A program made the position numbers and the translations under genes. Positions 12,565 to 44,236 of a stretch of DNA of 64,000 nt are shown one piece after another. Where the stretch lies: positions 496,001 through 560,000 of the forward strand of contig JAACJO010000018.1 in NCBI GenBank assembly GCA_013368445.1, read 5' to 3'. Every line of letters starts with the position of its first letter. The first letter of the stretch is position 1. The notes under the pieces were generated by a model. The model was given only the letters and a program-made list of their open reading frames with translations, ran no database searches and was not told the origin of the DNA. This DNA comes from Leucocoprinus leucothites. Taxonomy: Eukaryota > Basidiomycota > Agaricomycetes > Agaricales > Agaricaceae.

Positions 12565-15021
12565 ATGCCCCGGCGCGTTCGCAACTTTTTCGTCAAGCTC
12601 ACTCACGTCTACAAACAATTCTTTGATCCGTCTCGTCGGGTTGTGGATCCCAATGGCGCTGCGAGTCAAGCTTATACATCTGCGCCTCAACGACCTCCTC
12701 CGCCTTTGTCCACTCAAGATACCGCTCCGCTCTCTCAACCAGCTACCGCCACGCCTGCTACTCTCCCACCAGTACCACCTTCCACCACTCCTACTTCTGC
12801 GCTACTTGACGTTGAACCCCCTAGTCCAGCGCCCACTCCCTCGCCTTCCCCTTCCCCAGCTCCTGGTCCTCCTCCTACTTTGTCGCTACCCAGCCTATCA
12901 TCCATCCCTTCCTCACAGCCGCCAGATTCTCGCAAGCATGGAATGCTCTATAAGGCATCAAACTTTGCTATGATCAATCCTCAATTCATCGACGCCTCCC
13001 ATGCGGATTCCGGTAAGCTTCACAGTTCCCCCGAGCTGATACACTGACCTCATGCCGTAAATAGGCCTCAAAGAACTCCTCAAGTACTCAATGCCGGCCG
13101 CATTCCATGACTCTGGCGCTCGCTACCCACCACCAAAATGCCATCTCGGTACTAGAGGCGACTACATTGAACTCATCATCAACTGGGCGCTGGGAATGTC
13201 GGACCGCAAGGAACCCATCCTCTGGATGCGCGGTCCCTTTGGCATTGGCAAATCGGCTGTCGCCCAGAGCTGCGCCGAGGCCCTGGAGCGCATGAATAAA
13301 CTCGCTGCTACCCTCTTCTTCTCCCGCTCCAATTCAGATCGCGACGATCCTCAACGGGTCTTTACATCCATCGCGTATCAAATCGCTACCGTATGCCCTT
13401 CATTCGGGGAAATCGTCAGCAGGCGCATGGTTGAACATCCCGCTCTCGCGACAAAGTCGCTATCTAAGCAGTTCGAGGACCTGCTCGTCCAACCTCTTGG
13501 TCAGGTTCACATTGCAGAGAGCGGTCTCAACAAATGCGTTGTGATCATCGATGGACTTGACGAGTGCAACGGAACAGCAGAGCAGTGCGAGATCATCAAG
13601 ATCATCGCGGCTTCCGCTCACAACCATACAGTGCCCTTCCGCTGGTTCATCACCAGTCGCCCTGAAGACCCTATCATCCGCACCATGAATTCTGCCATTG
13701 TATCTCCTGTTCGTTCTCGTATCGAACTTCCTGTATCCCGCGAGATCGATCACGAGATCCTAGTCTACCTGACCGACGAATTCAAGGTGATCCGTGAGGA
13801 TCACGGTCTTCCCGAGTCGTGGCCACCGGAGGAGGCCCTCGCCCTGCTCGTTGAACGTGGTGCTGGACTGTGGATCTATGTTTCGGTCATCGTTCGCTTC
13901 ATCAAGGACGAAAACTCTCTTGGTCCCGAAGACCAGCTGCGGATTGTGCTCGAGTTTGCAAAGGAAGTCTCTACCAAGGTTGGGTCGGACAACCCTCTGG
14001 TGGAGATGGACTTTTTCTATACCCTTATCATGCAACGGATCCTGTCAAAGATCAGGACAACAGTCCAGAAAATCCTCTTGATTTGTGCTACGACTGTTAT
14101 GTCTCCACCTTCTATTGCCGCTGCCCTCTGCCTTTCCGCAGAGCAGCTCCGTCGCGCCTGCGCTTCCATTCAGTCGGTCATGGAGCTCCAAGACTTTGGC
14201 CGTGAAATCATGACCATACAATTCTACCACGCGTCGTTCCTCGATTTCATGGAAGATCCCCTGCGATCTAAGGGCCTATGTATTCGTGGCGACTTCTTGA
14301 TTGGGTGTCGACGGGAGCTTTTAGAGTGGCTGCATAAAGTCTGTTCTTGCAGTACAGGTACCGCATTTCCTGAACCCATCCAGTGTTTCTTGCTCTGACG
14401 AGGTGCCGTGTCACTCGCAGATTCCAAGCACATTGTGTTTCCTTCAGGTACTGTTCTCCCAGAAGGTGTATTGGATGTCAATCACTATGAATGTGTTTTG
14501 GCTTTGTTTTGGATACTTTGTGGAGTATGCAAGCATCCATTTGATTCCCAGACCGCTCGGTCTCTTGCGAAGCTTCCATTCAAGAAAATGCTCAGGTTGC
14601 TGGTTAACAGTCGTGTGCGGTTAATCAAAGGTAGTCTGGTAAGAGACAATGTGAGTTTCCAATACCATTTGTTTCCTTGGATTATCACTTATTATGTGAC
14701 TGGTGTTTGCAGCTCCCAGCTGAATTTTGTGACAAGATCATTCGAAAGGGCAAGTGTCCGATCCCAGGGTGCACAAACACCAAGGATGTCTGGATTTTGG
14801 GGCATGGAGAGAATGAAACAGTTCCTGCGCAATGGGATGGTGGCTTTGTGTTGGGTAACAATCGAAATGTCAGTAAATGCTTGCCTTGTTATTTTATCTG
14901 TGTTCTGACTGCTTTACCTCAGCCGCCTGATGGCAAGTGTGTCTGTGGAGCTCGAATGCGAAAGATTGTTATGAGGGGCAGGAAACTGATTTCGAAGATA
15001 CTGACGACGATGACTGGTTAG
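12565..15021 (+). CDS. NACHT-type P-loop NTPase (copy B), 741 aa, five exons
   Basis: Exons 12565-13012, 13065-14357, 14421-14650, 14713-14868 and 14923-15021 join in phase into 741 codons; the introns (52, 63, 62 and 54 bases) all have GT/AG ends. Residues 1-150 are a proline-rich leader beginning MPRRVRNFFVKLTHVYKQFF. The NTPase follows: Walker A GPFGIGKS at about 206-213, Walker B CVVIIDGLDEC at about 307-317, and WFITSRPEDP (sensor-like). There are no WD40 or ankyrin repeats after it, only about 300 residues ending in a Cys-containing tail (CPIPGC, then CVCGA). NACHT NTPases are nucleotide-driven oligomerising switches of NLR-like proteins; the function here is inferred from the fold only. 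Compared with the copy at 32,175, one base is lost after CVCGA, turning an acidic tail into the basic end MRKIVMRGRKLISKILTTMTG minus its first residue. Nearly identical exon lengths show recent duplication. Confidence 0.85.
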
Positions 15022-16439: not shown

Positions 16440-19400
16440 CCGAGTTCACAAGCAAAATGCTTGACTTTCGGCAACACGAGTGCCTTCGTGAAGACGTCTG
16501 TGACCATGTCTTTGGTCAGGCAATAGACAAGCCGAATCTTGTCCTCTTCGACAATCCAGCAAATAAAATGATAGTGTATGTTGATGTGTTTGGTGTGAGC
16601 ATGATACTGGTGGTCCTTGGCAAGTGCGATGGCGGATTGTTGTCAGAAAAGATGGTAGTCGAGGGGAGCATGATATTGAAGACTTGAGATATAAGTGAAC
16701 GAAGCCACAAGGCTTCCTTGGCGGCATGTGTTGCGGCAATGTACTCGGATTCTGTAGTAGAAAGAGTAACAATTTCTTGTCACTTCACACTCCAAGAAAC
16801 CGCTCCGCCATTAATAATGAAAGCGTACCCTGATGTAGCATGGCGGTCCTCTGCCATGTTGCCGTCTGCATCTGTAAATCCCTCAAGGCCTTCTCCAATG
16901 CCTCCATATGTCAACCAATACTCCTGAGTCCCCTTCAGGTACCTGAAGACTCGTTTCACCACCTCCCAATGTGCCTCCCCCGGATTTCTCGAAAACTTCG
17001 AGAGAACCTGCACTGTGTATGCGATATCCGGTCACGTTCCGAGTGCAGTGTACATGAGCATGCCGATGGCCTCTTGATAGGGTTGTTTGGACATTCGAGC
17101 AATTTTGGTGGTCGTTTGAGGTGATTGTGTGGATGCAAGTCGAGTTGAGGGGTCCATAGGCATGCTGACAGGCTTTGCATCCTCGAAACCATAGTGGTGA
17201 ATCAAAGCATCAATGTAAGAACGTTGGGAAAGTGAAATTTTACCAAGTTCTCTGTCCCTCTTCAACTCAATGCCTAACAACCAGTGGATCTCTCCCAAAT
17301 CCGTAATTTCCATGAATTCCTTCACTCCATGCTTCACCCAATCGATTAATGCGATGGTTGACATGACAATCGTGCAGTCGTTGACGTGGACAAGGATGAT
17401 GATGAGGTCGGGGGTGATGGTCTTGAAGAAAACGCTCTGGTTGACTTCACAGTGCGAAAATCCCAGATTATTGACTAATATTTCGCAGAGACGTTGATAC
17501 CATCGTCTCCCGGATTGCTTGAGGCCGTAGAGGGTCTTCTTGAGGTGGCATACATGATGAGGATGAGAGGAAGAGACAAAGCCGGGTGGTTGCTGCATGT
17601 AAATGTTCTCATCATCATTTAATTTCCCGTTAAGGTAGGCCCCTTTGATGTCGATCTGATGGATCTCCAGATCACGGGCGGCAGTGATGGCAAGTACGGA
17701 ACGGATTGATGAGAGGCACACAACAGGCGCAAATGTGTCAAAATAATCAATACCTGGGACTTGTGAGAATCCCTGTGCAATGAGTCTTGCCTTGTAGCAG
17801 ACAACATTGCCAGTCACCCCTTGTCTTTGCCTCACTCAGGCTTCCTGGCTCCAGCCCCTCTGTCTCCTCAATATCTGCTGCAAGAACATGGACATCAACC
17901 CAATCGATTTCCTCGGCTAATGTCACCACCGTCCCCTCAGGGATCGCCCGAGCTTTTGCGCTTGGATTTCTAATGCGCTGAGTCCTTCCAGCTCGAGGAA
18001 CGTCATTGTGGGGTGCTTCTCCAGGGTTGACATCGTTGTTCTCAGCACTTGATTTGTGCAGCTCAGTTTCAACAGGTTTTTCGTCAGGGGAAGGAGTTGG
18101 AGGGATAGTGGTTGTATCAGGATGGCTTGTTGAAGGTTTGCTGTTCCGTGGGCCATCGTTTCGAGGCTCGTTCCCAGGTAAGTGGTCCCCCTCGAGCCTG
18201 GAACGACCTGTATTAACAAAACAAAAGTTTCTTTCAATTTTGACAGTGCCTGTGTCTGGGAAATACACATGAGAGCCATTGCTCTCTGTGTCATATCCCA
18301 CCCATCATCCCTTCTTCGCTCGTCCACTGAGCTTGTCACCACCGGCTTGGTGTACCCACACCTCCTCTCCCCACTCATGTATTGTTCGCAAGTCCGGCTT
18401 TCGACCATACAACACCTCAAAAGGTGTCTGTCCTTTTACTGCTTTCATGCCCATTCGGTTCATCAACCACATGACATGGGCAACCACCTCTGCCCATAAC
18501 AACTTCGGCAAACGACTGGTGTGTAACAAGGCATGAGTGCATTCGACAATCATTCGATTTTGGCATTTGGCAATGCCGTTGTGCTGAGGTGTATTGTGCA
18601 TGGTAAGCTTTGTTTTCATGCCGTGGGATTTGAGGTATGACTGAAATTCATTTGTAGTGTATTCACCACCATGGTCCGAGTGCAGGGCTTTGATACACAT
18701 GCCAAACTGAGTCTCACACCACGCATTGAAGTTGCAGTATGACTCGAAGACGTCAGATTTATTTGAGAGGAAATCAACGTGAGTCCACCTCGAAAAATCG
18801 TCGATAAATGTCACATAATAATGTTTGCCCCTCTTTGTTTCAGTGCGTGCAGGTCCCCAGACATCTGAATGGATTTCATCACCAAACCTTTCTGCCTGCT
18901 CACCCTCACGAAACTTGGAAATTGGTAGCCGAGTTGCCTTTGCATAGGCACAAGACTCGCAGAAGAAATCGGTATCACTTCCATCGTCAAGCTTCAAGCC
19001 AGTGACTAGACTGTCACAGATAAGTTTCCGAGCAGCTCCAGGAGCAATGTGGCCCAAGCGGCGATGGAGCATATCTAGGGTGAGTGGTTCACTCACCACA
19101 TTCACTTCCTCTGCACCCTCTCTGACTAGTTTATACAGGCCTTTCCCATTCCTTGGGATCTCAGCTACTCGGGCACCGCCTGCATCGCAGATGACACACT
19201 TTCCGTTCGCGAAAGTGGTGGAGAATCTGGCATCGTCGAGCTGACTGATGGATACAAGTGTGTAACTGGCCTCAGGGGAATACAACACTTCACTCAGGTG
19301 GAGTTGAGATGAAGCGGCACCATTTGGTAAGTCTAAAGTGACTTCACCCTTTCCAACAGTGTCAAATGCTTTCTTGTTTGCAGCACGCAAGGGTCAAGGG

Positions 19401-19784
19401 GGAATGGATTTGAAGGTGGAAAAATGATTGTGGTAGGGAGTAATGTGAGTTGTTGCACCTGAGTCGAACACCTCGACTCGTGTTTGAGTGGATTCGCTGA
19501 CACTGACGACCTCTTCATTTGCAGCAATATTGACTTCTTCAAAATCTGATCCAAAATCAATTTCACTTGTGATCCCTTCATCACTTTCCGACACACTATT
19601 CAAGTGATCAGCCTCGAGTTTGGACCAACTCAAGTCACTCTTGTAGTCTGATAGCTCCTCTACCATGAAGGAGCAGTCGTTGTCATCGTCTTTGGTGACA
19701 ATATTGGCACTGGCACCCTTTCTAGGTGTGTTACCTCCCTTCTCCCCCTCCTTCTCACTAGTGCCTCTCTTAGGGCATTCTCTC
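16440..19784 (-). pseudogene. copia-1 pol: protease, integrase, reverse transcriptase, RNase H remains
   Basis: Reading from 19,784 downwards: the last zinc-knuckle residues (ECPKRG), an acidic linker, the protease site VFDSGATTHIT, the GAG-pre-integrase block LDMLHRRLGH, the integrase core (SDVWGP, LHSDHGGEYTT, then QHNGIAKCQNR), and RT with KARLIAQGFSQVPGIDYFDT and KKTLYGLKQSGRRWYQR. RNase H (GYAFIINGGAVSWSVK, then TESEYIAATHAAKEALWL) ends near 16,700. Damage: in-frame stops (for example between 18,304 and 18,302, and near 19,391), frameshifts, the integrase catalytic Glu replaced by Lys (IAKCQNR where family members read VAE-R), and the RT YVDD motif changed to HVND. These changes fit G-to-A or C-to-T transitions. 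The element cannot encode working enzymes. Confidence 0.85.
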
Positions 19785-20396
19785 TGTTGAAACAGTAATT
19801 GCTGCTACACAGCATAGTGCGAAGTGGCTGAGCAAGCTATGACACACTCACTTTGTAAGAATGCTAGATCAGTTGGTTGTAATAGCGAGTAATCGGTGTA
19901 GAACAGTAGCTGGGTTAGATTGTGTAGAATGTTTAGTTTGAGTGAAGCAATGATGATGATAGTTGTTTAGTTGTACACAATAAGATTGGTAAAACTTATT
20001 CTACCACTGAATTCTAGTCCGTATTTTATATGTTTCTACAATGTCTACTGAGTCATAGAAACTACCATGCACTATCAACTCATATTGTGGTATCATAATC
20101 ATTCTGACTGTGTCTGAGTCGTTCTGACTCATTACTGGTCATACAGGTCATTCTGACTCACAGTAGGCTTGGTACTGAGTCATTCCAACTAACTATTACT
20201 ATACAAATATCATATACTGTCATACTACATATCGTGGAATATACTAAGACATAATGATCAGATCATAACAATAAGTACTGATCCGTGATGTAATCAATCC
20301 TTGAATAGTCTGAAAGCAATCATTGGAAAGGTTCTCACACTCACTAAGGGCAAGCCCGTAGGGCGCTTCATTAGAGCGTCTGGTACTTTTGCAACA
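19785..20396 (-). repeat. copia-2 3' LTR (612 bases)
   Basis: It starts TGTTGAAACAG and ends CTTTTGCAACA in plus orientation. The purine-rich AAGCAAGGAGGAG abuts its element-sense 5' edge (20397-20410), as a polypurine tract should. No partner LTR is present. Confidence 0.75.
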
Positions 20397-20447
20397 CTCC
20401 TCCTTGCTTGAAGCTCAGAGGAACCTTAAACCATAATAAGGTAGGAA

Positions 20448-23400
20448 TCATTTAAAGAGAATATGATCCAGATTTTTAGTTAATAAATCGGCAGGGTTAT
20501 TTTTTCCTTCGATAAAATCTATCACAAGTTTCCCTTGTGTGACCCATTGCCTTATGACATAATAATGGATATCAATGTGTTTAGAACGTTTCTCAGTTAC
20601 TGGGTTTTCAGCCCAAAACTTCGATCCCATATTATCTCCAAATAAAACTGGAGGGTCGATCACTATCCCAATTTCTCGTAAGAGATTGGATATCCAAACA
20701 AGTTGTTTGCCTGTTTCGGATATTGCCATGTATTCGGCTTCAGTAGAAGATGTTGCAACAGACTTCTGTCTTCGAGAAGACCAAGAAATTGGCACATTCC
20801 CTATTAACACTATATTGCCTATTACGCTCAATCAAGTGTCAGGATCTTGAGCCCAATCCGAACCTGAATACACTCTCACATTGATAATTGGTTGTTTTCC
20901 TTTGAATTGAACTTCAGAAGATGTATAAGTGATATTATACTTCTGTGTTCAATTCAAGTATCAAAGTAAATGTATTCCTGCTCTATAATGAGCAGCGGAT
21001 GGGTTTGTCATGTGTTGTGATAATTTTACAGTAGCAAAACCAATGTCTGGTCTCGTACCAATCATCAAATACATGATCGATCCTACTAGTCGCTGATAAG
21101 CATTTGTGAATTTGGGACTCGCTTGTTCTTTGTTTTTCACAAAGATATATCCATGAGGAAGTGGAGTTTCTTCATAGCCAGAAACTTCAAATCTCTCTAA
21201 GATTTTCTTTAGATAAACTGTTTGATCTATTGAAAGCTGTCGCTTCTTTCGATCACGAGTTATAGTCATTCCTAAGAACTCTGCATCAGGCCCTAAGTCA
21301 CGACATTCCCATTTCTTCATAAATGCTGCTTTCTTTTCAGCAAGAAGTTTAGAACCTTTTGGTCCTATGAACTTAGCATCATCTCCATATACTAAGGCAA
21401 CGATCAACTGATTTGTTGATTTGTCATGCATATAGTATACTCCGGCATCTATGGTAGAACATGTAAAGCCCAATTCTTCCATGTAGGAAGAAAGTTCAAT
21501 CCACCATTGACGTCCAGACTGCTTTAGTCCATAGAGTGACTGTTCCAATTTAAGAACACTTTCTGAAGGTGCCGATTTCATTTCGAAACCTTCAGGCATC
21601 TCCATGTATATCTCTTCGTCGAGTTGTCTGTAAAGATATGCAGTTTTCACGTCTAGGCCAAACATGTCCCAGTCATGAAGTGCTGCGAGTGCAAATATAA
21701 GGCGAGTTGTCTCATATCGGACTACAGGACTAAAGAGTTCATCAAAGTCAATCCTCTCTACCTGGGAAAATCCCTTGGCAACCAATCGAGCATGTTTTCA
21801 CCCATCTGATTTAGGAGTAAATATCCATCGATTCTTGACTGCTTTCCTTCCTTGCGGAAGTCTGGTAATAGAATACACCTTTCTATTTTCCAGCGCATTC
21901 AATTCCTCCATGCATGCTTCCATCCATTGTTTAGAAATTTCTGGAGGAAGTCTTGCTAAGTCTGAGAACTTTTTCAGGGTTAAGTCATCCTCAACTTTGC
22001 AAGCGCATAGATAATCGATAAATTGTACCCCTTCTTCTTTACAAAGTTTGTTAAGATGAGCTGTCAAAGCTGATTCAGCATTCGGGTTTTCATCTCCTCC
22101 TTGATTTATATCAGGAGTGCTTTGTGAAGGAATTTGATCCGTTGTCCTATTTTGTATTGCTCTGTCGAAGTCTCGGCTTCTCTGTCTTTGAATGCGAAGA
22201 TTTTCAAAGACAGGACTTCTATTTATAAGAGCTCGGACCGGATGTTCTCTTTCTCCATATATGTTACCTTCACGAAAAGGAGGTTTCCTATTTCATTGAG
22301 GTCTTTCTGGTAGAACCCTGATTGGAGAAGGCTGATCCTGTGGTTGATCTAAATTTTCAAGAAGAGGGTCTCCCCTTCTGAATGTTTGTCGCACCACTGT
22401 TAACGGATCTTCCGGAGGCTGTACATATGATGGGTAATTTTTAAGGTTCACCCTTTCATATATATTTTCTTTTCGCTGTTTATGTTGGCGATCAGAAAAA
22501 CTTTTGTCTAGTTGACTCCGGCTGTGCTTTCTCGAAGGAGACTCTTGTACTGCTTCTCTGCGAGATTGTCGCATTGAATGTTCAAGAAGTCTTCGATCAG
22601 AAGAATGAGGTAGTCTGTCCGGATCACCAGTCTCAGGAGGATATTCCAGAGGGGGATCTTCATACCTCGAAAAGTCATATGGAGTAGGTGATCAAGAATA
22701 ACTAAAGGATCTAGATTGTGATCTATTTCCAGGAGATCTCGGATCATCTGTGGGATGCAAGCTTATGCTTCTTAGACATTCATTTAAGTCTCGCATTTCA
22801 TCCTCATCCATGTATGACAGATGATCATCACTATATGTTTGATCATCACGTGGTGTTTGTTCAGGTATTTCAACCTCGGATTCACTCTCCTCCTTGATTT
22901 GTACAGATTGAGGGGGGTATGGGGTTGGCTGTCTACGTCTGAGAGGCTTTATCTCAGGCTTAGAGCTCGAACCCTGAATGAATTCAGGCTTGCTCACAAA
23001 ACTCCTGTCGGGTTTCAGTGCAAATATACTAGAACCGCGTTGAGGTCTTTTCTCTCTCTTATTGGAGTCAGAAGACTTCGGAGATTTAGGACTTAGATCG
23101 TCGGAGGAGGATGAACTATTCCGATGAGGGTTAAGATAATAATCCAAAGGGTCATAGGAAGAGCTATTGCTGTTCCCTGGAACAGTGGGTAAGGGGCGAT
23201 TGGCCCATATACCCTCAGAAGATCCTAAGACTGTCATAGGTGTCTCGGATTCTTTACACTTTGGAAAATGACTTTCTATGAATATAGCTTGGTTTCCCAT
23301 GAATACCATATTATTATGCATATGCATGAATAGGTAATTCTTTTTATCAAGGGTGTGTCCTAAATGGATCATATATTCCGTTTTGGAACTGAGAGCATTA

Positions 23401-23650
23401 TTCCTAACTTCGTCAGGAAGGAAAACATGTGCTCTGCAACCAAACACCTTCAAGTGATTGATCAAAGGCTTTCCGCCAGAGATCATCTCAGATGGTGTCC
23501 TCCAATTCAAATGTGATAGTGGTGTTCGATTGTAAACATGTGTTGCATGGTGAAGTGCAAAATTCCACCAGCCATCAGGGATACATGTGTGTTTGCGCAT
23601 TGCCTGCATTTTTTCATGAAGGGTCCGGTGCATGCGTTCCGCACGACCAT
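20448..23650 (-). pseudogene. copia-2 pol fragment (integrase end, RT, RNase H)
   Basis: From 23,650 down: integrase C-terminus (GRAERMHRTLHEKMQAMR, HLKVFGCRAHVFLP), a long Ser/Glu-rich linker, then RT starting PPEISKQWMEACMEELNALE, ARLVAKGFSQVERIDFDELF, and the active site LVYGDDAKF. RNase H follows with KSVATSSTEAEYMAIS and KHIDIHYYVIRQWV. Stops and frameshifts separate the pieces, for example at 22,691, 21,798-21,785 and 20,960. Compared with copia-1 the active-site DD is kept. The first half of the element (gag, protease, integrase core) is absent. Confidence 0.8.
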
Positions 23651-24621
23651 TCTGTTCCCTTGAACTTTCCACCACCACCATTGTTCCCACCACCGCCCCC
23701 TCCCTTGTTTCCCACAACCATCAAAGCATCATTGCTTTCAGCTTTAGTGGCACCACCCCTGGATCGATCGGGGCGTGTTCTATCCCATTCATCACTAATT
23801 AAGATAATCAAGATGTCAGGATCTATGGTGTGTTGGAGGGAGCTATGGAGTTGGGCAGCAGAGAGCTGGTTTGAAGCATATGAAGCAAGCCACCGAGGTA
23901 AGGATTGTATTATTGCATTTCTGTAATCATTATCATTAATGATGACACCAACAGCTTCAAGTTCGGCTTTACAGCAGCAAAGTTCACTCAGGAACATATG
24001 AATATCACCCTTATCAGGGCATCGCATGGACATGAAGTCACGACGAAGATGTGCCTGTGAGAAGGCACTCTTGTAAGTGTATTCCTGCACTATGGCCACC
24101 CACATTTCTTTGACGGTTGGCTGTCCAGATACAACCAAAAAAGTAGAGTCAGGGAGTCATTGGGTGAGCAAGGCATGCAAATTTTTTGTTCTTGACCCAA
24201 CTCTCAACCATCTCAATTGTGACGGCAGGCTGTGTAGGCTGAATAGGGATGGCAGATGCTGTTGTTGTGGCAGCAGGGGTAGGCTGAGTGCTCGTAGGAA
24301 TGGCAGTCTGCAAGGGTGTGGCAGGAACAGGAGCAGGAGCAGAGGCAGTGCTCGAAGTGGCAGGGTTTGTAGGAGTAGCATCAGAGGCAGTAGCAGTGGG
24401 TTGTGTAGTAGGAGCAGAAGGAGTGGCACCAGACTGGGATCCGGTAGTCTGACTAGCAGAAGGTGAAACTCTGATTACAGGGCGAGGTTCACTACCATCG
24501 AAGTGGCCCCACAGATTCTTTCCTTGGACCTCTGTCTGGAAACGTATTGCGAATATCGCCTAGTTACTACCAGACACATCCAACTTCGGAACTGCTGAGG
24601 ACAGCATATTGGTAGTCATTG
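23651..24621 (-). pseudogene. copia-1 gag
   Basis: The frame opens MTTNMLSSAVPKLDVSGSN at 24,621 and is stopped by TAG where Trp is expected before AIFAIRFQTE. It continues with a Thr/Pro/Ala-rich stretch, a second nonsense codon (TGA, likely from CGA) near 24,155, and the UBN2-type gag body (PTVKEMWVAIVQEYTYKS, LRRDFMSMRCPDKGDIHMFL). It ends in the Gly-rich KGGGGGGNNGGGGKFKG, where copia-2 interrupts it just before the zinc knuckle. Confidence 0.75.
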
Positions 24622-32174: not shown

Positions 32175-34610
32175 ATGCCCCGGGCCAACAAACTCGCTCG
32201 CGTCCCTGAAAACTTTCATCCATATCGTCGGGGTCCAGCACCTCAACAACACCCTGTGCCTCCTTCTTCTACGGCTCCTACTCCTGCGCCGCCGCATGTT
32301 GAGCTCCCTAATCCAGCGCCTATTCCATCGCCTTCCCCAGCTGTTGACCCTCCTACTTTGTCTCCGCCCGGCCTGTCATCTCGTCCTTCTTCACAGCCAC
32401 AATATTTCCACGCACGTGAAATGTTCCACAATGCACAAAGCTTCACTATCAACCATCCTCAATTCATCGACACCTCCCATGCGGGCTCTGGTGAGCTTCA
32501 CGATCCCCCTAAGCTCACCCACTGATTTCATGTGACGAACAGGCCTCAAGGAACTCCTTAAGTACTCAATGCCGAATGCATTTCACGATTCTGGCGCTCG
32601 CTATCCACCACCAAAATGCCACCTTGGCACTCGAACCAATTACATTGACCTCATCACCAACTGGGCGCTGGGAACGTCGGATCGAAAGGAGCCCATCCTC
32701 TGGATGCACGGTCCCTTTGGCATTGGCAAGTCGGCTGTCGCCCAGAGCTGCGCCGAGGCCCTGGAGCGCATGAAGAAACTTGCTGCTACCCTCTTCTTCT
32801 CCCGTTCTAATTCAGATCGCGACGATCCTCAACGCGTCTTTACATCCATTGCATATCAAATTGCCACCAAATACCCCTCATTCCGTGAAATCATCGACAG
32901 GCGTATGATTGAAGACCCTGCTCTCGCAACAAAGTCACTATCGATACAGTTCGAGGTCCTACTCGTCCAACCCCTTCGTCAGATTGACGTTGCGAGGAGC
33001 GGACTTGCTGAATGTGTTGTGATCATCGATGGACTGGATGAGTGCCGTGGAACAGGGGGGCAGTGCGAGATCATCAAGATCATTGCAGCTTCCGCTCACA
33101 ACCGTACAACGCCCTTCCGCTGGTTCATCACTAGTCGCCCAGAAGACCCTATCATCCGCACTATGAACTCTCCTGCCGTATATCCCGCCCGATCTCGTAT
33201 GGAACTTCCCGTGTCTCGTGCAATCGATCACGAGATCCTAGTCTACCTGACTAACGAATTCAAGGCGGTCCGCGAGGATCACGGTCTTCCCGAGTCGTGG
33301 CCATCGGAGGAGGCCCTCACCCTGCTTGTTGAACGTGGTGCTGGGCTGTGGATCTACGTGTGGACCATTGTTCGTTTCGTCAAGGATGAAACCTCTCTTG
33401 GCCCCGAAGACCAGCTGCGTGTTGTGCTCGAGTTTGCAAAGGAAGTCTCTGCCAAAGTTGGGCCGGACAACCCGTTGATGGAGATGGACCTTTTCTATAC
33501 CCTCATTACGCAACGAATCCCGCTGAAGATCAGGACAACAGTCCAGAAAATCCTCCTGCTTTGTTCTACATCAACTCGGGATCCAGAATGTATTGCCGAT
33601 ACCCTCCGCCTTTCCGCGGAGCAATTCCGTCATGCCTGTGCATCCATCAAGTCAGTCATGGAGCTCAAAGGCTCTGACCTCAAATCCATGCACATAAACT
33701 TCTACCACACATCATTCCTCGATTTCATGAAAGATCCCCAGCGGTCTAAGGACCTATGTATTTATGGTGACTTTTTGATTGGGTGTCGACGGGAGCTTTT
33801 AGAGTGGCTGCATAAAGCCTGCTCTCATAGTACAGGTACTGTGTTTCCCGGACCTATCTAGTGTTTCTTGCTCTGACAAAGTGTGATGTCACTTGCAGAT
33901 TCCGAGTACATTGCATTTTCTTCAGGTACTACTCTCCTAAAAGGCTTATTGGATGTCCATCCCCATGACAACATTTTGCTTTGGTTTTGGGAGCTTTGTG
34001 AAGTACGTGAGCATCCATTTGATTCCCAGACTGCTTGGTCTCTTGTGGAGCTTCCATTTGTGAAAATGCTCAGGTTGGTGGATCGCTATAATGGGTGGCA
34101 GATTAGTGGTGGTGGGGTAAGAGACAATGTAAGTTTCCAATACCATTTGTTGCCTTGGATTATCACTCATTATGTGACTGGTGTTTGGCAGCTCCCAGCT
34201 GAACTTTGTGACAAGATCATTCGAAAGGGCAGGTGTCCAATCCCAGGGTGCATGAACACCAAAGATGTCTGGATTTTGGGACATGGAGAGAATGAGGCAG
34301 TTCCACAACAGATGGGTGATGGTTGTCACTTTGTGTTGAAAGATAATCAAGGTGTCAGTAAATAGTTGTCTTGTTATTTTATCTGTGTATTCTGACTGCT
34401 TTACCTCAGCTATCTAATAGCAAGTGTGTCTGTGGAGCTCCAAAGCAAGCTGATAGTAATGAGGGACAGCAAACTGATATTGAAGATACTGGTGCTGAGG
34501 ATACTGATATTGAGGATACTGATGTTGAGGATACTGATATTGAGGATACTGATGTTGAGGATACTGATGTTGAGGATATTAATACTGAGGATACTGATGA
34601 CAATGATTAA
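32175..34610 (+). CDS. NACHT-type P-loop NTPase (copy D), 733 aa, five exons
   Basis: Exons 32175-32490, 32543-33835, 33899-34128, 34192-34353 and 34410-34610 join in phase to 734 codons including the stop; introns are 52, 63, 63 and 56 bases. Exons 2 and 3 have exactly the same lengths (1293 and 230) as in copy B. Walker A GPFGIGKS falls at about residues 162-169 and Walker B CVVIIDGLDEC at about 263-273. The proline-rich leader is about 44 residues shorter than in copy B. After the NTPase come CPIPGC and CVCGAP, which could bind a metal, then an acidic tail of pentapeptide repeats (about eight units of D-T-D-[IV]-E type). No premature stop or bad splice site is seen, so the gene looks functional. 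Role as an NLR-like switch is inferred from family. Confidence 0.87.
34495..34605 (+). repeat. 15-base coding minisatellite in the last exon of NACHT gene D
   Basis: Tandem units of GATACTGATRTTGAG encode the acidic pentapeptide D-T-D-[IV]-E. About seven to eight units are visible, the outer ones degenerate. The corresponding part of copy B has only one unit-like segment and is out of frame. Confidence 0.85.
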
Positions 34611-35030: not shown

Positions 35031-35035
35031 GGATA

Positions 35036-35594
35036 TGTCACGAGCTGGGCCTCAAGAACGGCTGACGGTTTGAACTTGGTATTATTTTCATGAACTCCTA
35101 GCTGCTTTCACATATCGGTTACTTCGGTTTTTATCGGTCTTTCGCCTTCGGACTTATTCTGACATCTTCCATGTTATTAATTCATACCGCCTTGTCGAAA
35201 TTTTCTGACAACCGTTTAATAGTAAATTTTATATCTTCTAGCCTTGTAAAATTTGCGGACTCCACTTTGATTATTTCTCCGTTTATTACTTTGTTTGTTT
35301 TCCTTATCCGATCCTATATTCCACATCGTATATAAGTAGCACGACTTTGTACTTGGGTTCCTCAGTCTGATAATCAACTTAGCGATACGCTACTTTCCTC
35401 TGCTCTCTGTTCGTCCTCAGCTCTCTTATATTGTCTGAAATCCGGGTCAAGCATCAGTAGTCGGCACAACACATAAGTTGAGGCCACGACCCGCTCCCGC
35501 GTCCGACGACCGGCTCCTGCCTTACCTCTGTCACACCTCTGTCCAACCGGTCCTTGACGTCGGCTCCCTATCCGTAGCGTTTGCGCGCTTAACA
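35036..35594 (+). repeat. Chromovirus 5' LTR
   Basis: 559 bases. A TATA box (TATATAAG, 35329-35336) lies 35 bases before AGTCTGATAAT (35364-35374), the probable start of the RNA. That 11-mer is complementary to the sequence just after the LTR. Confidence 0.9.
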
Positions 35595-35596
35595 GT

Positions 35597-35607
35597 ATTA
35601 TCAGACT
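35597..35607 (+). promoter_or_regulatory. Primer binding site of self-priming type
   Basis: ATTATCAGACT, two bases after the LTR, is the exact reverse complement of AGTCTGATAAT at 35364-35374, where transcription should begin. Tf1/sushi-type chromoviruses prime reverse transcription with an 11-base match between RNA 5' end and PBS; the length and position here agree. Confidence 0.7.
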
Positions 35608-35641
35608 CAGATTCTACTGTCGCACTCGCACTTCTGTTATC

Positions 35642-37234
35642 ATGGTCAACACCCGTACTATCAAGGGCAAGACCTCCACCGTTGCGCAACCAGAGCGAAA
35701 ACGCTCTCACACTCCTCCTCCTGTCCCAAGCTCTTCTCGTCTGACCGACGACAATTCTCGTATCAGTATCCGCGCTCATCGTTCACGTCGTCTTAATCCC
35801 AATCTCCCAGAAACTCCTCGATCTGCTAGTTCTCCTCCACCGCCTCCTCGTCGTTTTCGAAATATCCGTTCTCCCAGAACTCCTGCCCCACCTGGTGGTC
35901 TGCCATCTGACAGAGATCCATCCGATCCCTCGGAACCGGGTGACTCTGATGGTCCAGACTACGCCGATAATCAATCTATGGGCCACGACGGCGATGATGA
36001 AGACGATGAACCCATCTATAACGGCTCCCCCGGTGGTCCTGGTGACCCCGACGACAATGATCCTGAAGACCCTTCCCATTCTTCCGATGATGAGCCTCTT
36101 CCTCCTCGACGGGCACCTCATCCCCGAGCTCCCCGACAGGATCCAAACAATGATCGTCTAGCCGATGCCTTGGGTAGGCTTGCTGACAATCTCGATCACC
36201 AAGCGGCTGCACAAGCCAATCAGACTCGCATCAATAAGGCTCGCCTCCCAGACACTTTCAGCGGCTCTGACCCCGAAAAACTCAACACTTTCCTAATCCA
36301 ATGCCGTCTATATTTCCGAGCCAACCCCACACAATTCCAGCACGACAATCAGAAAGTCGATTTTGCCATGACCTACCTCACCGGTGTTGCGCTTGACTGG
36401 TTCGAGGTCGGCCTCACTCAGGAAGAACAGGGTGTCTTCCATGACTGGTTCGACGATTGGAATGCATTTGTCCGTGAGCTCTGTACGCATTTTGGCATTG
36501 CCAACCCAAAGGGAGAAGCAGCCAAGATGCTTGATACCCTTCGCATGAAACCGGGTGATAAAATCGCCACTTTCAACGTCGAGTTCCTCAAACACGCCTC
36601 TCAACTCGGTTGGAACGATGAGGTCCTCTGCCATTGTTACTACAAGGGACTTCCGAACCGCATCCAAGACCCTCTCAGTACCCGTGAGCAGGGTAAACCC
36701 ACTACTTTCGAGGAAATGCATCGCTTGGCCATCGTTTACGACGGATGCTACTGGGAGCGTGACCGTGAATGTGTTCGTGCCCGCGCTGCAGAGAAGGATG
36801 CTGCCGATTCTCTGAATCGGAAGCAGCCCAACAAGCCCTTGACCTCCAATCCTTCCAACCCGAATCCGTCACGCGGCCAGTCTCAACCTGGCAACAACAA
36901 CAACAACAACAATCGAGGAGGCAACAACAGTAACAGCAACAACAACAATAACCGCAATCAGTCGCAGGCTCCATCAACCAAATCCAACACCCCCGCTCCA
37001 TCCACATCCAGTACCCAACGCCCTACGCCGAAATTCGACCTCTCTAGTAAACTCGGCCAAAATGGCAAACTGACACCCGAGGAGCGGAAACGACACCTCG
37101 ACGAAGATCTCTGTCTATTCTGCGGTGGCAAAGGCCACAAGGTCGAGAATTGCCACAAGAAACAAAATCGGGCCAAGATCCACAAGGTCGAAGCGGCTCC
37201 GCCTAAGGACTCTGAAAAGAGTCCGGAAAAATAG
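35642..37234 (+). CDS. Chromovirus gag, 530 aa
   Basis: Open from the ATG at 35,642 to TAG at 37,232-37,234. The first ~190 residues are Pro/Arg-rich then acidic (DGDDEDDEP). The retrotransposon gag body follows (KLNTFLIQCRLYFRANPTQF, TYLTGVALDWFEVGL, RELCTHFGIANPKGEAA). An Asn-rich stretch leads to a CCHC zinc knuckle, CLFCGGKGHKVENC, near residue 500. The protein forms the particle shell and binds element RNA. The stop overlaps the start of the protease frame, which lies in the -1 frame (37,234 onward), so a -1 ribosomal frameshift at CCGGAAAAATAG is likely. The frame is undamaged. Confidence 0.92.
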   Translation: MVNTRTIKGKTSTVAQPERKRSHTPPPVPSSSRLTDDNSRISIRAHRSRRLNPNLPETPRSASSPPPPPRRFRNIRSPRTPAPPGGLPSDRDPSDPSEPGDSDGPDYADNQSMGHDGDDEDDEPIYNGSPGGPGDPDDNDPEDPSHSSDDEPLPPRRAPHPRAPRQDPNNDRLADALGRLADNLDHQAAAQANQTRINKARLPDTFSGSDPEKLNTFLIQCRLYFRANPTQFQHDNQKVDFAMTYLTGVALDWFEVGLTQEEQGVFHDWFDDWNAFVRELCTHFGIANPKGEAAKMLDTLRMKPGDKIATFNVEFLKHASQLGWNDEVLCHCYYKGLPNRIQDPLSTREQGKPTTFEEMHRLAIVYDGCYWERDRECVRARAAEKDAADSLNRKQPNKPLTSNPSNPNPSRGQSQPGNNNNNNNRGGNNSNSNNNNNRNQSQAPSTKSNTPAPSTSSTQRPTPKFDLSSKLGQNGKLTPEERKRHLDEDLCLFCGGKGHKVENCHKKQNRAKIHKVEAAPPKDSEKSPEK

Positions 37235-40200
37235 AGGGCGACCCTCAGGACTCTGCACAGACTGGGGGTCGCGTTGAGCTCATCTGTGCACCAGAGAGTC
37301 TCCTCCGCCTCAATGCGTCCGCTCTTTCCAATCCGAATTCTCTTATTGCTTCCCTCACTTCTTCTCTCATTTGCTCATCCGATAATATCCAACGGATACC
37401 GTTTTGTGCTCTCGTTGATTCCAGCTCGACTCATTGCTTCATAGATTCTGATTTCGTCCGCACTCACTCTCTTCCGACTTCGCCTTTACCTCCTATCGAG
37501 CTTTGCCTATTTGACGGATCGTCAAATAGTTACATTACTGAACTTGTGAACCTTCCTGTTACCTTCTCTACTGGTGAATCTATGACTATTGACTTCTATG
37601 TCACTCGGCTTGATTCTTCCTGCTCTGTGGTACTTGGACACAACTGGCTCACCCGCTTACAATCCGTTGATTGACTGGGTTTCGAGCAGCATATCTTTCC
37701 GATCGCATTTGCAGGATAATCTTGCCCCTTCTGCCCGCATCGCATCCGCTCCCATAGCGGCTCCTACTTCGTCACCCGCTCCTAGCCCGACGGCTGACAC
37801 TCCTCTGAATTCACCATCCTCTGGGACTTCTATGTCTACTCCTGGTATTGCAACAGCTCCTCGCGTTTCTATCATCAACGCTGCTGCATACATTCGCGCT
37901 TCGCGCCTTCCTGGTTCAGTAAACTTCCGCCTCAATCTCAGCTCGCCTTCCGCTTCCGCCAATTCGGCTCGGTTTTCCGACGAGTCAATTGACCTTTCTA
38001 AAGTGCCCGACGAATATCATGAATTCGCCGATGTGTTCAGCAAAGCTCGCGCTGACAGCCTTGCGCCGCATCGCCCCTACGATCTCAAAATCAATATTGA
38101 AGAGGGTGCTCAACCTCCCATTGGCACTATCTATTCATTATCTCCATCCGAGCTTGAGTCGCTCCGCGAATTTATTGACAAACACGTATCTATTGGTTTT
38201 ATCCGCCCCACTTCTTCGCCTCACGGCGCACCCGTTCTCTTCGTTCGGAAGAAAGACGGTTCATTACGACTTTGTGTCGATTTCCGCGGCCTCAATCGCA
38301 TCACCAAGAAGGATCGCTACCCGCTCCCGCTCATCTCTGACCTACTCGACTCTCCTCACAAAGCCCGCATCTATACCAAGATAGACCTTCGACACGCTTA
38401 TCACCTCATTCGGATCGCTGAAGGAGACGAATGGAAAACGGCTTTCAGGACCCGCTATGGATCCTTTGAATGGCTGGTTATGCCTTTCGGACTCACCAAC
38501 GCACCCGCAGCTTTCCAGCGGTTCATGAACGACATCTTTTCCGACCTCCTCAACATCTGCGTCACAGTCTATCTCGATGACATCCTCATCTACTCTGACG
38601 ACCTCGACACACACAAGAAACAAGTTCGAGACGTCCTCAAGCGGCTCCGCAAGCATGGCCTATATGCTAAAGCGGAAAAATGCGAGTTCCATTCCGATTC
38701 TGTCGAATACCTCGGGTATATCCTTTCACCAGCCGGTCTCAAAATGTCGGAAGACAAAATCAAAATCATCCAGGATTGGCCTGAACCGAAGAAAGTCAAA
38801 GACATCCAGTCTTTTCTAGGTTTCGCCAATTTCTATCGACGCTTCATTTACAACTATTCCGATATCGTCGTCCCGCTTACGTGCCTCACCCGAAAAGCAT
38901 CTAAGTGGAACTTCGACAAACGGTGTCGCGAAGCCTTCAACTCCCTCAAAGAAGCGTTCACCACTGCTCCTATACTCACTCACTGGATACCCGACGCCCA
39001 GATCATCATTGAGACTGATGCTTCCGATTATGCACTTGCTGCCATCCTTTCCATTGTCGCGGACGACAACGAAGTTCACCCGATTGCGTTCCATTCCCAC
39101 ACCTTCAGCACGGCCGAGTTAAACTATGACACTCACGACAAAGAGCTCCTTGCTATCTTCGAGGCTTTTCACACCTGGCGGCATTACCTTGAAGGAGCCC
39201 CACTCCCTATTGACGTTGTTACCGATCACAAGAACCTGGAATACTTCTGCACTACGAAGATCCTAACTCGTCGACAGGCTCGTTGGTCTGAGTTCATATC
39301 ACAGTTCAACCTCATCATCCGTTTCCGACCCGGCTGACTCGGAACCAAGCCTGACGCTCTCACTAGACGATGGGACATCTACCCTAAAAGGGGGAATAAT
39401 GGCTACGCTTCAGTCAATCCTCATAATTTCCGTCCTGTATTTTTGCATGAACAGTTATCGGCTTCAGTTCGAGCTACTTATTTTTCAACTCCTTCCCTTC
39501 GCGCTGCCACCATACTAGATCTCGAGAAACTTCATTCTGATATCCTTACTTCGCTCCCTCAAGACCCGATCACATCCGCTCACATTACTCATCCCGAAGG
39601 CCGCTGGTCAGTTGATTCCGCTGGTTTCCTTCGGCTCGACAACAGGATCTATGTACCCGACGTCAACAATCTTAGACTCAGAGTTCTACAATACAAACAC
39701 GATCACGTCCTTTCTGGCCATTTCGGTCAGAACAAGACCCTCGAACTCATCCGACGCGAGTACACCTGGCCTGATATCCGATCTCAGGTCAAGGCTTTCT
39801 GTAAATCCTGCGTTACCTGTATGCGATCCAAGTCTCAGCGCCACAAGCCATACGGTAACCTCAAGCAACTCCCCATTCCTGAACGCCCTTGGAATTCGAT
39901 TTCAATGGATTTTATTGAGAAACTCCCTTCTTCCTCTGGCTTTGACACCATCCTCGTTATCGTCGACCGACTCTCCAAACAGGCTGTATTCATTCCGACC
40001 CACGACACTATCACTTCCGCAGAACTAGCACGGTTATTTGTCATTCACGTATTCTCTAAGCATGGTGTTCCTTCTCATGTCACTTCCGATCGCGGTTCAG
40101 AGTTCGTCTCACACTTCTTCCGTTCCCTCGGCACGGCTCTGGACATGCGCCTTCACTTCACATCTGGTTATCATCCTGAAGGTGACGGACAAACGGAACG

Positions 40201-40984
40201 AACTAACCAAACGCTAGAGCAGTACCTCCGCGTTTACTGCAACTATCAGCAGAACAACTGGTCCGACCTCCTCCCACTTGCAGAATTCGCATACAACAAC
40301 GCGCCCAGTGCTACCACCGGAATTTCGCCCTTCTTCGCCAACAAGGGTTATCACCCAAACATTACAGTTCATCCTGAACACGATATCGCATCGGCTCGCG
40401 CACGCGACTTCGCAGTCGATCTCGACGAATTACACACTACTCTCAAAGCTGAAATAGCCACTGCTCAAGAACGCTACCAACGAACCGCTGATGCACGTCG
40501 GTTACCAGCCCCAGAGTTCAAAGTCGGCCAGAAAGTTTTCGTGAAAGCTCAATTCTTCTGCACTACCCATCCATCCAAAAAGCTTTCTGAAAAATACCTC
40601 GGTCCATACGAAATTATCGCTCAACCTGGCTCTCACTCGTTCACCCTTCGCCTTCCAGATTCCATGCGCGCTGTTCATCCTGTCTTCCACGTTTCCATGC
40701 TTGAGCCGACCACACCCAATCCATTTTCCGATCGCACAGAACCGGCTCCTGCTCCCGTTGTCATTGACGGTGAGCCAGAGTACGAGATTGCCCGCATCGT
40801 AGACTCGAAGATCGATCGACGTCACACATGCAAACTTCTCTACAAGGTCATCTGGTTGGGATATGAAGATACTGACGAAGAATCTTCATGGTTACCTGCT
40901 ACCGAGCTTACACACGCGACTGAACTTCTTTTTGATTACCATTCTGCTTATCCTGACAAGCCTGGCCCACTTCCTTTATCCTAG
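37234..40984 (+). pseudogene. Chromovirus pro-pol: protease, RT, RNase H, integrase, chromodomain
   Basis: Protease (37234-37674, -1 frame to gag) has an ALVDSSSTHCFID site, with Ser where Gly is usual. It ends in HNWLTR, and the RT frame picks up at once with YNPLIDWV: one extra T near 37,658 causes the break. From 37,589 the frame holds RT (PYDLKINIEEGAQPPIG, LRLCVDFRGLNRITKKD, active site TVYLDDILIYS), RNase H (IIETDASDYALAAIL, VVTDHKNLEYF), the H-H-C-C integrase finger (HFGQ...CKSCVTC), the integrase core (MDFIEKLPSSSGFDTIL, VTSDRGSEFVSHFF, PEGDGQTERTNQTLEQYL) and a C-terminal chromodomain (EYEIARIVDSK, LLYKVIWLGYED, ESSWLPATEL). A TGA at 39,335-39,337 follows FRPG where family members have Arg or similar, a simple CGA-to-TGA change. 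Two point lesions thus separate it from an open frame. Confidence 0.92.
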
Positions 40985-41287
40985 ACTTTCTCTCGGCTAC
41001 GTATTTTCTTCACCCGTTTTATGATACCGGCTCACTCGTTTTCTTCTGGACTTAGACAATTTTTCGCACTTCCGTACTTACCATTTTGTTTTGCTTACAC
41101 CCAATAGCCTCATCTCCCTCTCGTCTTTTTTCTCTTATTTCGGACTTTTTCTTTACTCACACTTGGCCCCAAGAAATATCATCCATTTCAAACACAAGTC
41201 CAAAGAGCAAAAGTAAAATATGCGACAACAAAAAACGGATTCACGACGACGCGAGCCGAGCATGAGGAACGGGATGGACGAAACGAC

Positions 41288-42542
41288 CTACTTACTCCCA
41301 CTCTCATCCTCCTTCTCTCCCTCATCCTCCTCCTCTCCAGCCTCTCCCTCATCCCCAGATCCAGCTTCCGACGTCTCGGGCACGTTCTTCTTAGTGGCCA
41401 ATCTGGCGTCCAACTCCGCCTGTGCCTTTTCGTGCGCCTCGTCGTCCATCACCTTGTCATCAAGGACAAGCCGGTCGTAGAACTCCTCGAAGTCCTTAGC
41501 CAGCCCATCCACGACCTTGGTCTGGGACCGGATACTCGACACCATTGCCAAGTGCCGAGTTCCCAACTCGGCCCGGATCCCCTTCAACTCCTTGAGAATA
41601 GCCGTTTGGACGGCCCGGGTCTTCCTCTGCTCGACAATTAGTTCGTACGTTTGTTCATGAGGCTGTTTGTCAGCCTCTGTCGGAACCGCACACTTCTGTT
41701 TTGAAGTGTGGCATGGCTCGCACATATACTTGCCGCTGTGAATGTTGTCAGTTGATCAGCCGACCCAGGGAATCGGAAGCTACTCACGCGTCACTTTGCT
41801 CGGTGCAGTTCTTGCCCAGACGCAAGCACCGCCCGCACTCGTTGTCTCCGCCCATCTTTATCTTCCCTCCCTTGGCGTCATAGTTTCCGCATTTTCGGAG
41901 AACGGCGGTCTCGTCTCTTCCATCTCCGGCCAAACCTGAGCCGGGCGTCCACAACGGATCGTCGTCTTGATCATCCAACTCCGTAATTTGATACTTGGAG
42001 GGACCAGCGGCCGCACTCCGTTGAGTCAACCTGGCCGTATCAGCCGGCCCGCTCGTCGGTTTTGCACGAGGCCTTCGAGCCCCAGTCCCCGCCTTCGCAT
42101 TTTCTGTCGTTTTCGTTTTCTTCGCCGGACTCTCCACTATCTCGACCTCTACCTCCATTGCCCTCTTCTTTCCCTTCCCCTTCTCTTTTTCCTGTCTTTC
42201 CTTCTCCTTCTTCTCGGCCTCGAGCCAAATCCGCTCCGCCAGCTCGGCCTCCTCCTTTTCCTTTTGTAGCCGCTCCGCTTCCTCGGCCTCCTTCCTCTTT
42301 TTCTCAGCTTCCTCAGCCTCTCTCTGTTTCTTCTCTGCCATCTTCCTCCGCAACTCTTCTTTCCTCTTCTGCTGTTCCGCCTCCTCGCGCTTCTTCTTTT
42401 CGGCTTCCTCAGCTTCTCTCTTCTTCCTCTCCTCTCCCTCGGCTGCCTTCCGAGCATCCTCCTCGTCCATCTTGCGAAGTTTGTTTTCGAGGTCGCTATC
42501 AGACATTGGGTCGGATCCTTGTGTAGCGGAATTGGGCGCCAT
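41288..42542 (-). CDS. Antisense accessory gene of the chromovirus: Zn2Cys6 zinc-cluster coiled-coil protein, 400 aa
   Basis: This gene lies between pol and the 3' LTR on the strand opposite to the element RNA. Exon 1 (42542-41788) and exon 2 (41735-41288) are joined across a 52-base intron (GTGAGT...TTCACAG), giving 400 residues without a break. Residues about 20-125 are a long Glu/Lys/Arg coiled coil, followed by a basic nuclear-localisation-like stretch (KGKGKKR, PAKKTK). After splicing the cysteines read C236-x2-C239-x6-C246-x10-C257-x2-C260-x6-C267, the GAL4-type zinc-cluster spacing; the intron falls inside it, which supports the splice model. The C-terminal part is helical and ends in an acidic tail. 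It is probably a nuclear DNA-binding protein, but the target is unknown. It starts 130 bases from the LTR, so an antisense LTR promoter could drive it. Confidence 0.83.
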
Positions 42543-42671
42543 GGTAGATAAAGGGGATTAAGTTGTGAGAAAGCTTAATTTTTCCCTCAGAGCGGAATTT
42601 ATACGGAGTTCGAATTGGTTCCCACGATCAAGTCACGTGGCTTCGAGGGCTCAGCCCTAAGGGGGGAATAC

Positions 42672-43230
42672 TGTCACGAGCCGGGCCTCAAGAACGGCTG
42701 ACGGTTTGAACTTGGTATTATTTTCATGAACTCCTAGCCGCTTTCACATATCGGTTACTTCGGTTTTTATCGGTCTTTCGCCTTCGGACTTATTCTGACA
42801 TCTTCCATGTTATTAATTCATACCGCCTTGTCGAAATTTTCTGACAACCGTTTAATAGTAAATTTTATATCTTCTAGCCTTGTAAAATTTGCGGACTCCA
42901 CTTTGATTATTTCTCCGTTTATTACTTTGTTTGTTTTCCTTATCCGATCCTATATTCCACATCGTATATAAGTAGCACGACTTTGTACTTGGGTTCCTCA
43001 GTCTGATAATCAACTTAGCGATACGCTACTTTCCTCTGCTCTCTGTTCGTCCTCAGCTCTCTTATATTGTCTGAAATCCGGGTCAAGCATCAGTAGTCGG
43101 CACAACACATAAGTTGAGGCCACGACCCGCTCCCGCGTCCGACGACCGGCTCCTGCCTTACCTCTGTCACACCTCTGTCCAACCGGTCCTTGACGTCGGC
43201 TCCCTATCCGTAGCGTTTGCGCGCTTAACA
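42672..43230 (+). repeat. Chromovirus 3' LTR
   Basis: 559 bases, almost identical to 35036-35594, preceded by the polypurine tract AAGGGGGGAATAC and followed by the duplication GGATA (43231-43235). Confidence 0.93.
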
Positions 43231-43235
43231 GGATA

Positions 43236-43746: not shown

Positions 43747-44236
43747 TCTCAAGTCACTTCTCTTCTCAAAGATGGCTACTCCATGTGCCAGATTGAACAT
43801 AAAACTGGTCTAGGCAAGTCTACTGTTGGGAGGATCAAGAAAAAAGTTGATGGGGACAAGGAAAACAACAAGGGAGGATGTCCTTCTAAGCTTTCTCTTT
43901 GTAATAAAAAAGCAATAATTCACCAAATAACCTCTGGAAAGCTAGACAATGCTGTCCAGGCTACAAATTTCATTAACTCTACTCTGTCTGACCCTGTCAC
44001 ACCCCAAACTGTCAGAAATACCTTTTAAAACAATGGATTTTGCTCTGTAACCAAGATCAAACAACCTCTACTCAAAAAGCAACATTGTGAGGAACACCTT
44101 GACTTTGCACATGAACATAGGAATTGGACAGTGGAAAGACTGGAAGAGGGTGTTGTTATAGTAATGCCAGCCCAGTCCTAAGCTGGCACAATAAGTATCA
44201 GATTGATCTTATCAAAGGGGACTCCTTCTCAGTAAG

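Follow-up and report, generated by a model that had tools for sequence, protein, structure and literature searches.

An antisense, intron-bearing accessory gene with a probably permuted Zn2Cys6-like cluster in chromoviruses of Leucocoprinus leucothites

How can a retrotransposon, which passes through RNA at every round of replication, keep a gene that contains an intron, and what would such a gene do for the element that carries it? Both questions are raised by a locus in the basidiomycete Leucocoprinus leucothites, where a chromovirus bears an additional gene on its minus strand. We analysed the 64,000-nucleotide stretch of DNA that surrounds this locus (referred to below as the window), and compared the element and its gene with their relatives in the same genome.

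A minus-strand gene with a divided cysteine cluster

The window contains a whole, young chromovirus on the plus strand (35036..43230), whose ends, read from the sequence, are flanked by the 5-bp target duplication GGATA (35031-35035 and 43231-43235). Its 559-bp 5' LTR (35036..35594, plus strand) and its 3' LTR (42672..43230, plus strand) differ by two mismatches. Between them, all on the plus strand, lie a gag ORF of 530 residues (35642..37234; Pfam Ty3_capsid and Retrotrans_gag), the reverse transcriptase (RT)/RNase H part of pol (37589..39337), whose frame is interrupted in this copy, and a part of pol encoding the integrase (H2C2, rve and SH3) and a chromodomain (39443..40984). The gag, RT, RNase H, integrase and chromodomain matches all exceed the Pfam cut-offs, and the features that define a chromovirus are present, namely a Ty3-type gag, the order RT-RNase H-integrase, a chromodomain at the integrase end, and LTRs. 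At its 3' end, pol has an open frame of 548 codons in the window copy, as compared to 1256 in five siblings.

Between pol and the 3' LTR, the preliminary description had placed a minus-strand gene of two exons, which our analysis recovers (42542-41788 joined to 41735-41288) as an antisense gene of 400 codons that we call type A. Exon 1 (41788..42542, minus strand, 755 nt) encodes a long helix, a basic linker and the first half of a cysteine cluster; a 52-nt intron (41736..41787, minus strand, GTGAGT...TCACAG) divides the cluster; and exon 2 (41288..41735, minus strand, 448 nt including the stop) encodes its second half, a further helix and an acidic tail. The six cysteines, at residues 236, 239, 246, 257, 260 and 267, adopt the spacing C-x2-C-x6-C-x10-C-x2-C-x6-C only across the splice, just as the same description had proposed. 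The spliced junction is also present in an NCBI hypothetical protein of L. leucothites (400 residues, 97% identity over query residues 150-370). A structure prediction based on an alignment of two sequences (mean pLDDT 61.5) places helices at residues 15-129 and 272-342, mostly with good confidence, and has pLDDT values below 50 in the cluster region.

The interval from the accessory ATG to the 3' LTR (42543..42671) is purine-rich at its LTR end and contains the motif TATAAATT on the minus strand, 53 nt upstream of the ATG (42596..42603). Of the 41 type A copies, 38 have this motif and three show no match to it, and it is also present in the related type B described below; its position and recurrence make an internal promoter for antisense transcription likely, with TATAAATT as the candidate. 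A CGG-N8-CGG site near this TATA motif was dropped and is not claimed, because CGG pairs occur with many spacings across the element.

Zn2Cys6 clusters (PF00172) hold two zinc ions, bind DNA at CGG triplets and have the spacing C-x2-C-x6-C-x(5-12)-C-x2-C-x(6-8)-C. The spacing in type A falls within this pattern, as does that of type B and of a third type, C, in which the linker is 8 residues. When whole proteins were compared to the Zn_clus profile in their natural order (cut-off 21 bits), type A scored 13.2 bits and type B 9, and type C gave no match. The type A segment alone scores 18.1 bits in two stretches, its first half matching profile positions 19-34, and swapping its halves gives a single stretch of 24.8 bits. 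Swapping raises the type B segment from 14.2 to 20.3 bits, just under the cut-off, and type C has no match in either order. Because the swap lifts the type A segment above the cut-off, the two halves of the cluster appear to be permuted; the gain is modest, since two controls in which the residues between the cysteines were rearranged gave 16.1 bits and no match, and of the halves taken singly the first scored 16.3 bits and the second had no match. Among solved structures the accessory protein has three matches, each with E above 1; the weak PDB match to the Zn2Cys6 domain of AlcR (E 4.7) pairs the halves in the swapped order. No Pfam domain other than Zn_clus was found in types A and B. The GAL4-type Zn2Cys6 assignment made earlier thus stands for the spacing and fails for a plain domain, and we regard the type A cluster as probably a permuted Zn2Cys6-like cluster rather than a member of PF00172.

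Several other features occur in the surrounding window. Similar ORFs of 435 and 430 residues (13091-14398 and 32569-33861, both plus strand) share a GPFGIGKSA P-loop and look like NACHT-type NTPase genes or fragments. Several minus-strand ORFs at 17032-23717 look by eye like copia-like RT and integrase, as in nested or decayed Ty1/copia elements. An ORF of 81 residues contains 8.5 copies of a 15-nt tandem repeat (34473-34599), roughly 440 nt ahead of the 5' LTR, and about 550 nt past the 3' LTR is another 81-residue ORF (43783-44028, plus strand), which resembles the N-terminal part of a Tc1/mariner-type transposase.

Intron persistence and selection among copies

Searching this genome at the DNA level returned at least 41 rows (40 of 66 candidates scored). 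The copy set, obtained by local search, comprised 43 stretches from 40 loci, and removal of two L036 duplicates left 41 non-duplicate type A copies, in which the accessory gene was examined. Two pairs (L002/L003 and L004/L005) are identical within the pair over the extracted DNA and lie in different places; they are either very recent insertions or assembly duplicates.

If the sense genomic RNA alone is copied into DNA, an antisense intron is expected in every copy. This is what is observed: 52 nt separate the splice sites in 41 of 41 copies, none is intronless, and the persistence of the intron through retrotransposition, argued in the preliminary description, is upheld. The acceptor is AG throughout, and the donor is GT in 29 copies and AT in 12; because the donor G is preceded by C, the AT donors look like the product of CpG decay. 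A full-length frame remains in 12 of the 41 copies (11 with GT-AG sites and one with an AT donor), and the six cysteine codons are kept in 37, 40, 39, 41, 40 and 38 copies, respectively.

To measure selection, dN/dS was calculated by the NG86 method for all 36 pairs among nine full-frame type A copies. Between subfamilies of CpG-rich copies (window, L003, L006, L009, L013 and L020) the ratio is 0.07-0.14; it rises to as much as 0.46 in pairs with the CpG-depleted L015, L016 or L024, and is 0.6-1.9 within the youngest subfamily, where it is based on 8-19 changes. As a null, the observed changes of three pairs were redistributed randomly among sites that matched in base and CpG state; 300 runs per pair gave means of 0.57-0.61 and minima of 0.31-0.36. 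When five pairs were scored in six frames, only the gene frame was free of stops, and it also had the lowest ratios (0.07-0.14); one reverse frame, in which 6-8 stops occur, reached 0.15-0.23, since it shares its wobble position with the gene frame. For type C, random runs were as low as observed in 17 and 19 of 300 for two of six pairs and in 31 to 288 for the rest, and for the one type B pair in 60 of 300, which is not below chance. A chance ORF is excluded for type A by the invariant intron together with dN/dS values below the random minima. These ratios argue for strong purifying selection on the type A gene, and we consider it almost certain that the accessory gene is real and under selection.

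The same results bear on whether the protein is the active product. Antisense RNA itself might regulate the element, by forming double-stranded RNA or by controlling copy number, and the protein would then be secondary; noncoding antisense RNA roles are discussed for other retroelements in the available part of PMC7264820. Such a role would not account for the concentration of changes at synonymous sites or for the kept frame, which together indicate that the protein is selected, and we judge it improbable that RNA is the principal regulator.

Relatives of the gene and recombination

An integrase-chromodomain search of the genome yielded at least 123 pol rows (121 of 442 candidates scored), with some elements contributing more than one row, and a protein search for distant accessory relatives provided 150 listed matches of 157. 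Among the matches listed, 103 of 117 pol rows of 55-100% identity have an antisense accessory gene no more than 2.5 kb beyond pol; 68 of these genes are of type A/B and 35 of type C, and none is in the sense orientation. The median distance from pol, measured on 101 rows, is 447 nt for type A/B and 662 nt for type C. The 3' LTR itself was inspected in the window, L041, L043, L047, L048 and the aligned type A copies. Six more distant pol rows (31-37% identity) have no type A/B or C gene within 4 kb among the matches listed, and the pieces beyond pol of L058-L060 (33-37% identity), read in all frames, contain no antisense frame with a double CxxCx6C. Two of these distant gypsy elements, L058 and L060 (pol 33%), have long sense ORFs after pol, one of which is Cys-rich and zinc-knuckle-like.

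Type B (L041) encodes 402 residues, has a 52-nt intron at the type A site and has identical cysteine spacing. Types A and B are 47% identical overall, with 67% identity in the cluster block (47/70), 65% in the N-terminal helix (75/116) and 22-36% elsewhere. Type C (L047), with 381 residues and a 60-nt intron whose splice choice is uncertain, is dissimilar to A/B except for CxxCx6C...CxxCx6C. Profiles of A/B and C align all six cysteines (E 0.0012 in a single comparison) with a probability of 19%, for which reason homology of type C to A/B is not claimed. In the pol tree, type A (35 rows) has 97/97 support and type B (4 rows) 100/99, and type C is a single row on a long branch. Judging from this tree, the division into accessory types A and B mirrors the pol clades at the deeper level. 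In our interpretation the gene is a true accessory gene that belongs to a single clade of fungal chromoviruses.

Some observations would also be expected of a chance ORF or a functionless host gene that was captured passively. Fourteen of the 117 related pol rows lack an accessory gene detectable at the search sensitivity among the matches listed, although one of them (C4:1216059) does hold a type B remnant (L049), and a full-length frame is missing from 29 of the 41 type A copies. A pol row lies within 4 kb of 68 of 78 type A/B loci and of none of the other ten among the matches listed, so that a host donor gene is conceivable; one of the ten, C33:7874, sits in copia-like sequence. Against this origin are the strong purifying selection in the gene frame, the matching position of homologous genes in two pol clades, and the genomic PF00172 rows, none of whose 42 members at E of 1 or less is within 1.5 kb of an accessory row. 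Taken as a whole, a chance or passively captured gene is extremely improbable, and a selected accessory gene is the reading retained below. In the type B remnant (L049; C4:1216900-1220500) the pol match is stop-free, the cysteine-cluster stretch is lost and both gene ends remain in one frame; the other ORFs of this locus fall beyond its LTR.

Protein searches with type A found only L. leucothites proteins (in one search, among the 7986 candidates with the most shared words). Searches with types A and C together found, beyond P0001 and P0002 of the same species, only P0003, a protein on a 3.9-kb JGI contig that covers 74% of type C at 99% identity. Viral contigs, scanned with two patterns drawn from the low-complexity helix, gave no match, and in NCBIfam the P0001 helix has a sub-cut-off TolA match and P0002 has none. 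Because the method depends on shared words of 5 residues, and genes of transposons frequently go unannotated, absence elsewhere is weak evidence.

Within type A, the gene is far more divergent than the element around it. Among nine young copies, pol (39981-40984) is 0.8-7.1% apart and the gene 0.6-17.8%. Between the window and L020 the differences are 1.5% in pol, 2.3% in the gap between pol and gene, 14.7% in the gene, 0% in the pre-LTR stretch and 5.6% in the LTR; L012 behaves like L020 relative to the window, and its 5' LTR, gag and RT differ from those of the window by 0-6.5% per 200-nt bin. The pre-LTR stretch (42543-42673) is 0-0.8% apart among the window, L003, L006, L012, L013 and L020, and that of L009, L010 and L014 is 3-7% from these six. 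By gene, the copies form the groups (window, L003, L006), (L009, L010) and (L012, L014, L020, with L013 nearest). These groups recur in the LTR matrix, whereas by pol L020 groups with the window; L013 is exceptional in that its pol-gene gap is about 21-23% from all others. Since the gene groups match the LTR and not pol, the histories of pol and gene differ, and the sequences indicate that type A elements have recombined.

Balancing selection on the accessory gene is a possibility suggested by these patterns; the gene adjoins the 3' LTR, however, and linkage alone may explain the shared grouping. A bolder reading, which we think unlikely, is that the antisense, intron-bearing, permuted-Zn2Cys6 regulators are diversifying, and that old, LTR-matched alleles have been kept as recombination homogenised the rest, so that the gene would form a locus of self-versus-other recognition or regulation.

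Divergence of this kind also bears on two other proposed roles. In the first, the antisense protein would counter host silencing by DNA methylation or small RNAs. That no other part of young type A elements is as diverse as the gene would be expected in a conflict, and CpG counts of 91-99 in the six youngest copies and fewer than 20 in many old ones fit a loss by methylation; yet the old copies were depleted despite bearing the gene, and the low dN/dS among CpG-rich subfamilies carries no sign of positive selection, so that we regard a counter-silencing role as distinctly unlikely. In the second, the protein would act in replication or integration (in the particle, nuclear import or target choice) rather than in transcription, its cluster and helices contacting proteins or nucleic acids alongside gag and integrase. 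The well-supported tie to one clade of chromodomain-ending pol is consistent with such a role, and in the portion of PMC7264820 available, plant antisense ORFs are suggested to act in retrotransposition. The pairing of nearly identical pol with a divergent gene in the window and L020, however, implies that a tight match between gene and integrase is not needed, and a role in replication or integration is to be considered doubtful.

Proposed role and known antisense genes

The best overall explanation, to which we give slightly less than an even chance, is that the gene encodes a nuclear regulator of its own element. Antisense transcription would start at the internal promoter between the 3' LTR and the gene, presumably at TATAAATT (42596-42603), and the resulting mRNA would be spliced. 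The intron would be unrecognised in the genomic RNA and copied unchanged, because that RNA is the opposite strand. In the predicted protein, a long helix and the basic linker precede the permuted Zn2Cys6-like cluster, and a second helix and the acidic tail follow it; the helices together with the basic and acidic stretches lead us to favour a nuclear DNA-binding regulator. The protein would most likely enter the nucleus, dimerise through its helices and, with zinc bound, bind the DNA of its own element at the 3' end or the LTR. Binding could then tune transcription of the element in either direction, in a manner comparable to HBZ in HTLV-1. That regulation works via the element's own DNA is a tentative proposal, which we hold at somewhat less than even odds.

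Antisense accessory genes are already known from Boty (brtn), Grande and Retand elements, and the zinc-cluster, intron-bearing form is a new variant of them. The preliminary description had seen no precedent among fungal chromoviruses, a claim that is not supported: in 2011 Zhao reportedly described brtn, a further antisense gene carried by Boty-like elements of Botrytis cinerea. A CHROMO domain in Boty-like gag-pol appears in the accessible passages of PMC4227169, and brtn, as far as these passages go, thus resembles our gene as an additional antisense gene in a fungal gypsy-type element with a chromodomain; it differs in its ascomycete host, and the passages mention neither a zinc cluster nor an intron. 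In plants, the excerpts of PMC7264820 describe Grande gene23, which encodes a nuclear protein and has its own promoter, as well as antisense ORFs in RIRE2 and PvRetro13; these differ from our gene in their hosts, are reported without clear protein similarity, and the function of antisense accessory genes of LTR elements is called unsettled there. The Retand TRP28 ORFs (PF04195) are, in the part of PMC11963269 available, antisense, at the same place and predicted to bind DNA. Retand elements are not chromoviruses, PF04195 has no Pfam match in the accessory proteins, and the words 'zinc' and 'intron' do not occur in that part of the text. Titles and abstract openings, including few subscription papers, pointed to no antisense gene of the zinc-cluster kind in any basidiomycete element, and the available text of a fungal LTR-element survey (PMC3248453) contains neither 'accessory' nor 'zinc'.

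A functional parallel is found in retroviruses. HBZ of HTLV-1 and APH-2, -3 and -4 of HTLV-2, -3 and -4 are likewise antisense and spliced, and according to the sections of PMC10186651 at hand, HBZ lowers HTLV-1 expression and APH-3 and -4 suppress LTR-driven transcription. These proteins have a bZIP domain or none, and their promoter is in the 3' LTR; no bZIP family is among the Pfam matches of the accessory proteins, and the relationship is one of analogy rather than homology. With the GAL4 and AlcR Zn2Cys6 regulators, the accessory protein shares six similarly spaced cysteines, basic residues and a predicted helix nearby, but its halves are swapped and it scores below the family cut-off; a permuted zinc cluster, if true, would depart from the usual form of a major DNA-binding domain of fungi. 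The gene described here has a recognisable domain, and the evidence that it is under selection is strong; its persisting intron illustrates a way for a retroelement to retain a spliced gene, and its natural alleles go with particular LTR subgroups. Together these features make the function of antisense accessory genes directly testable.
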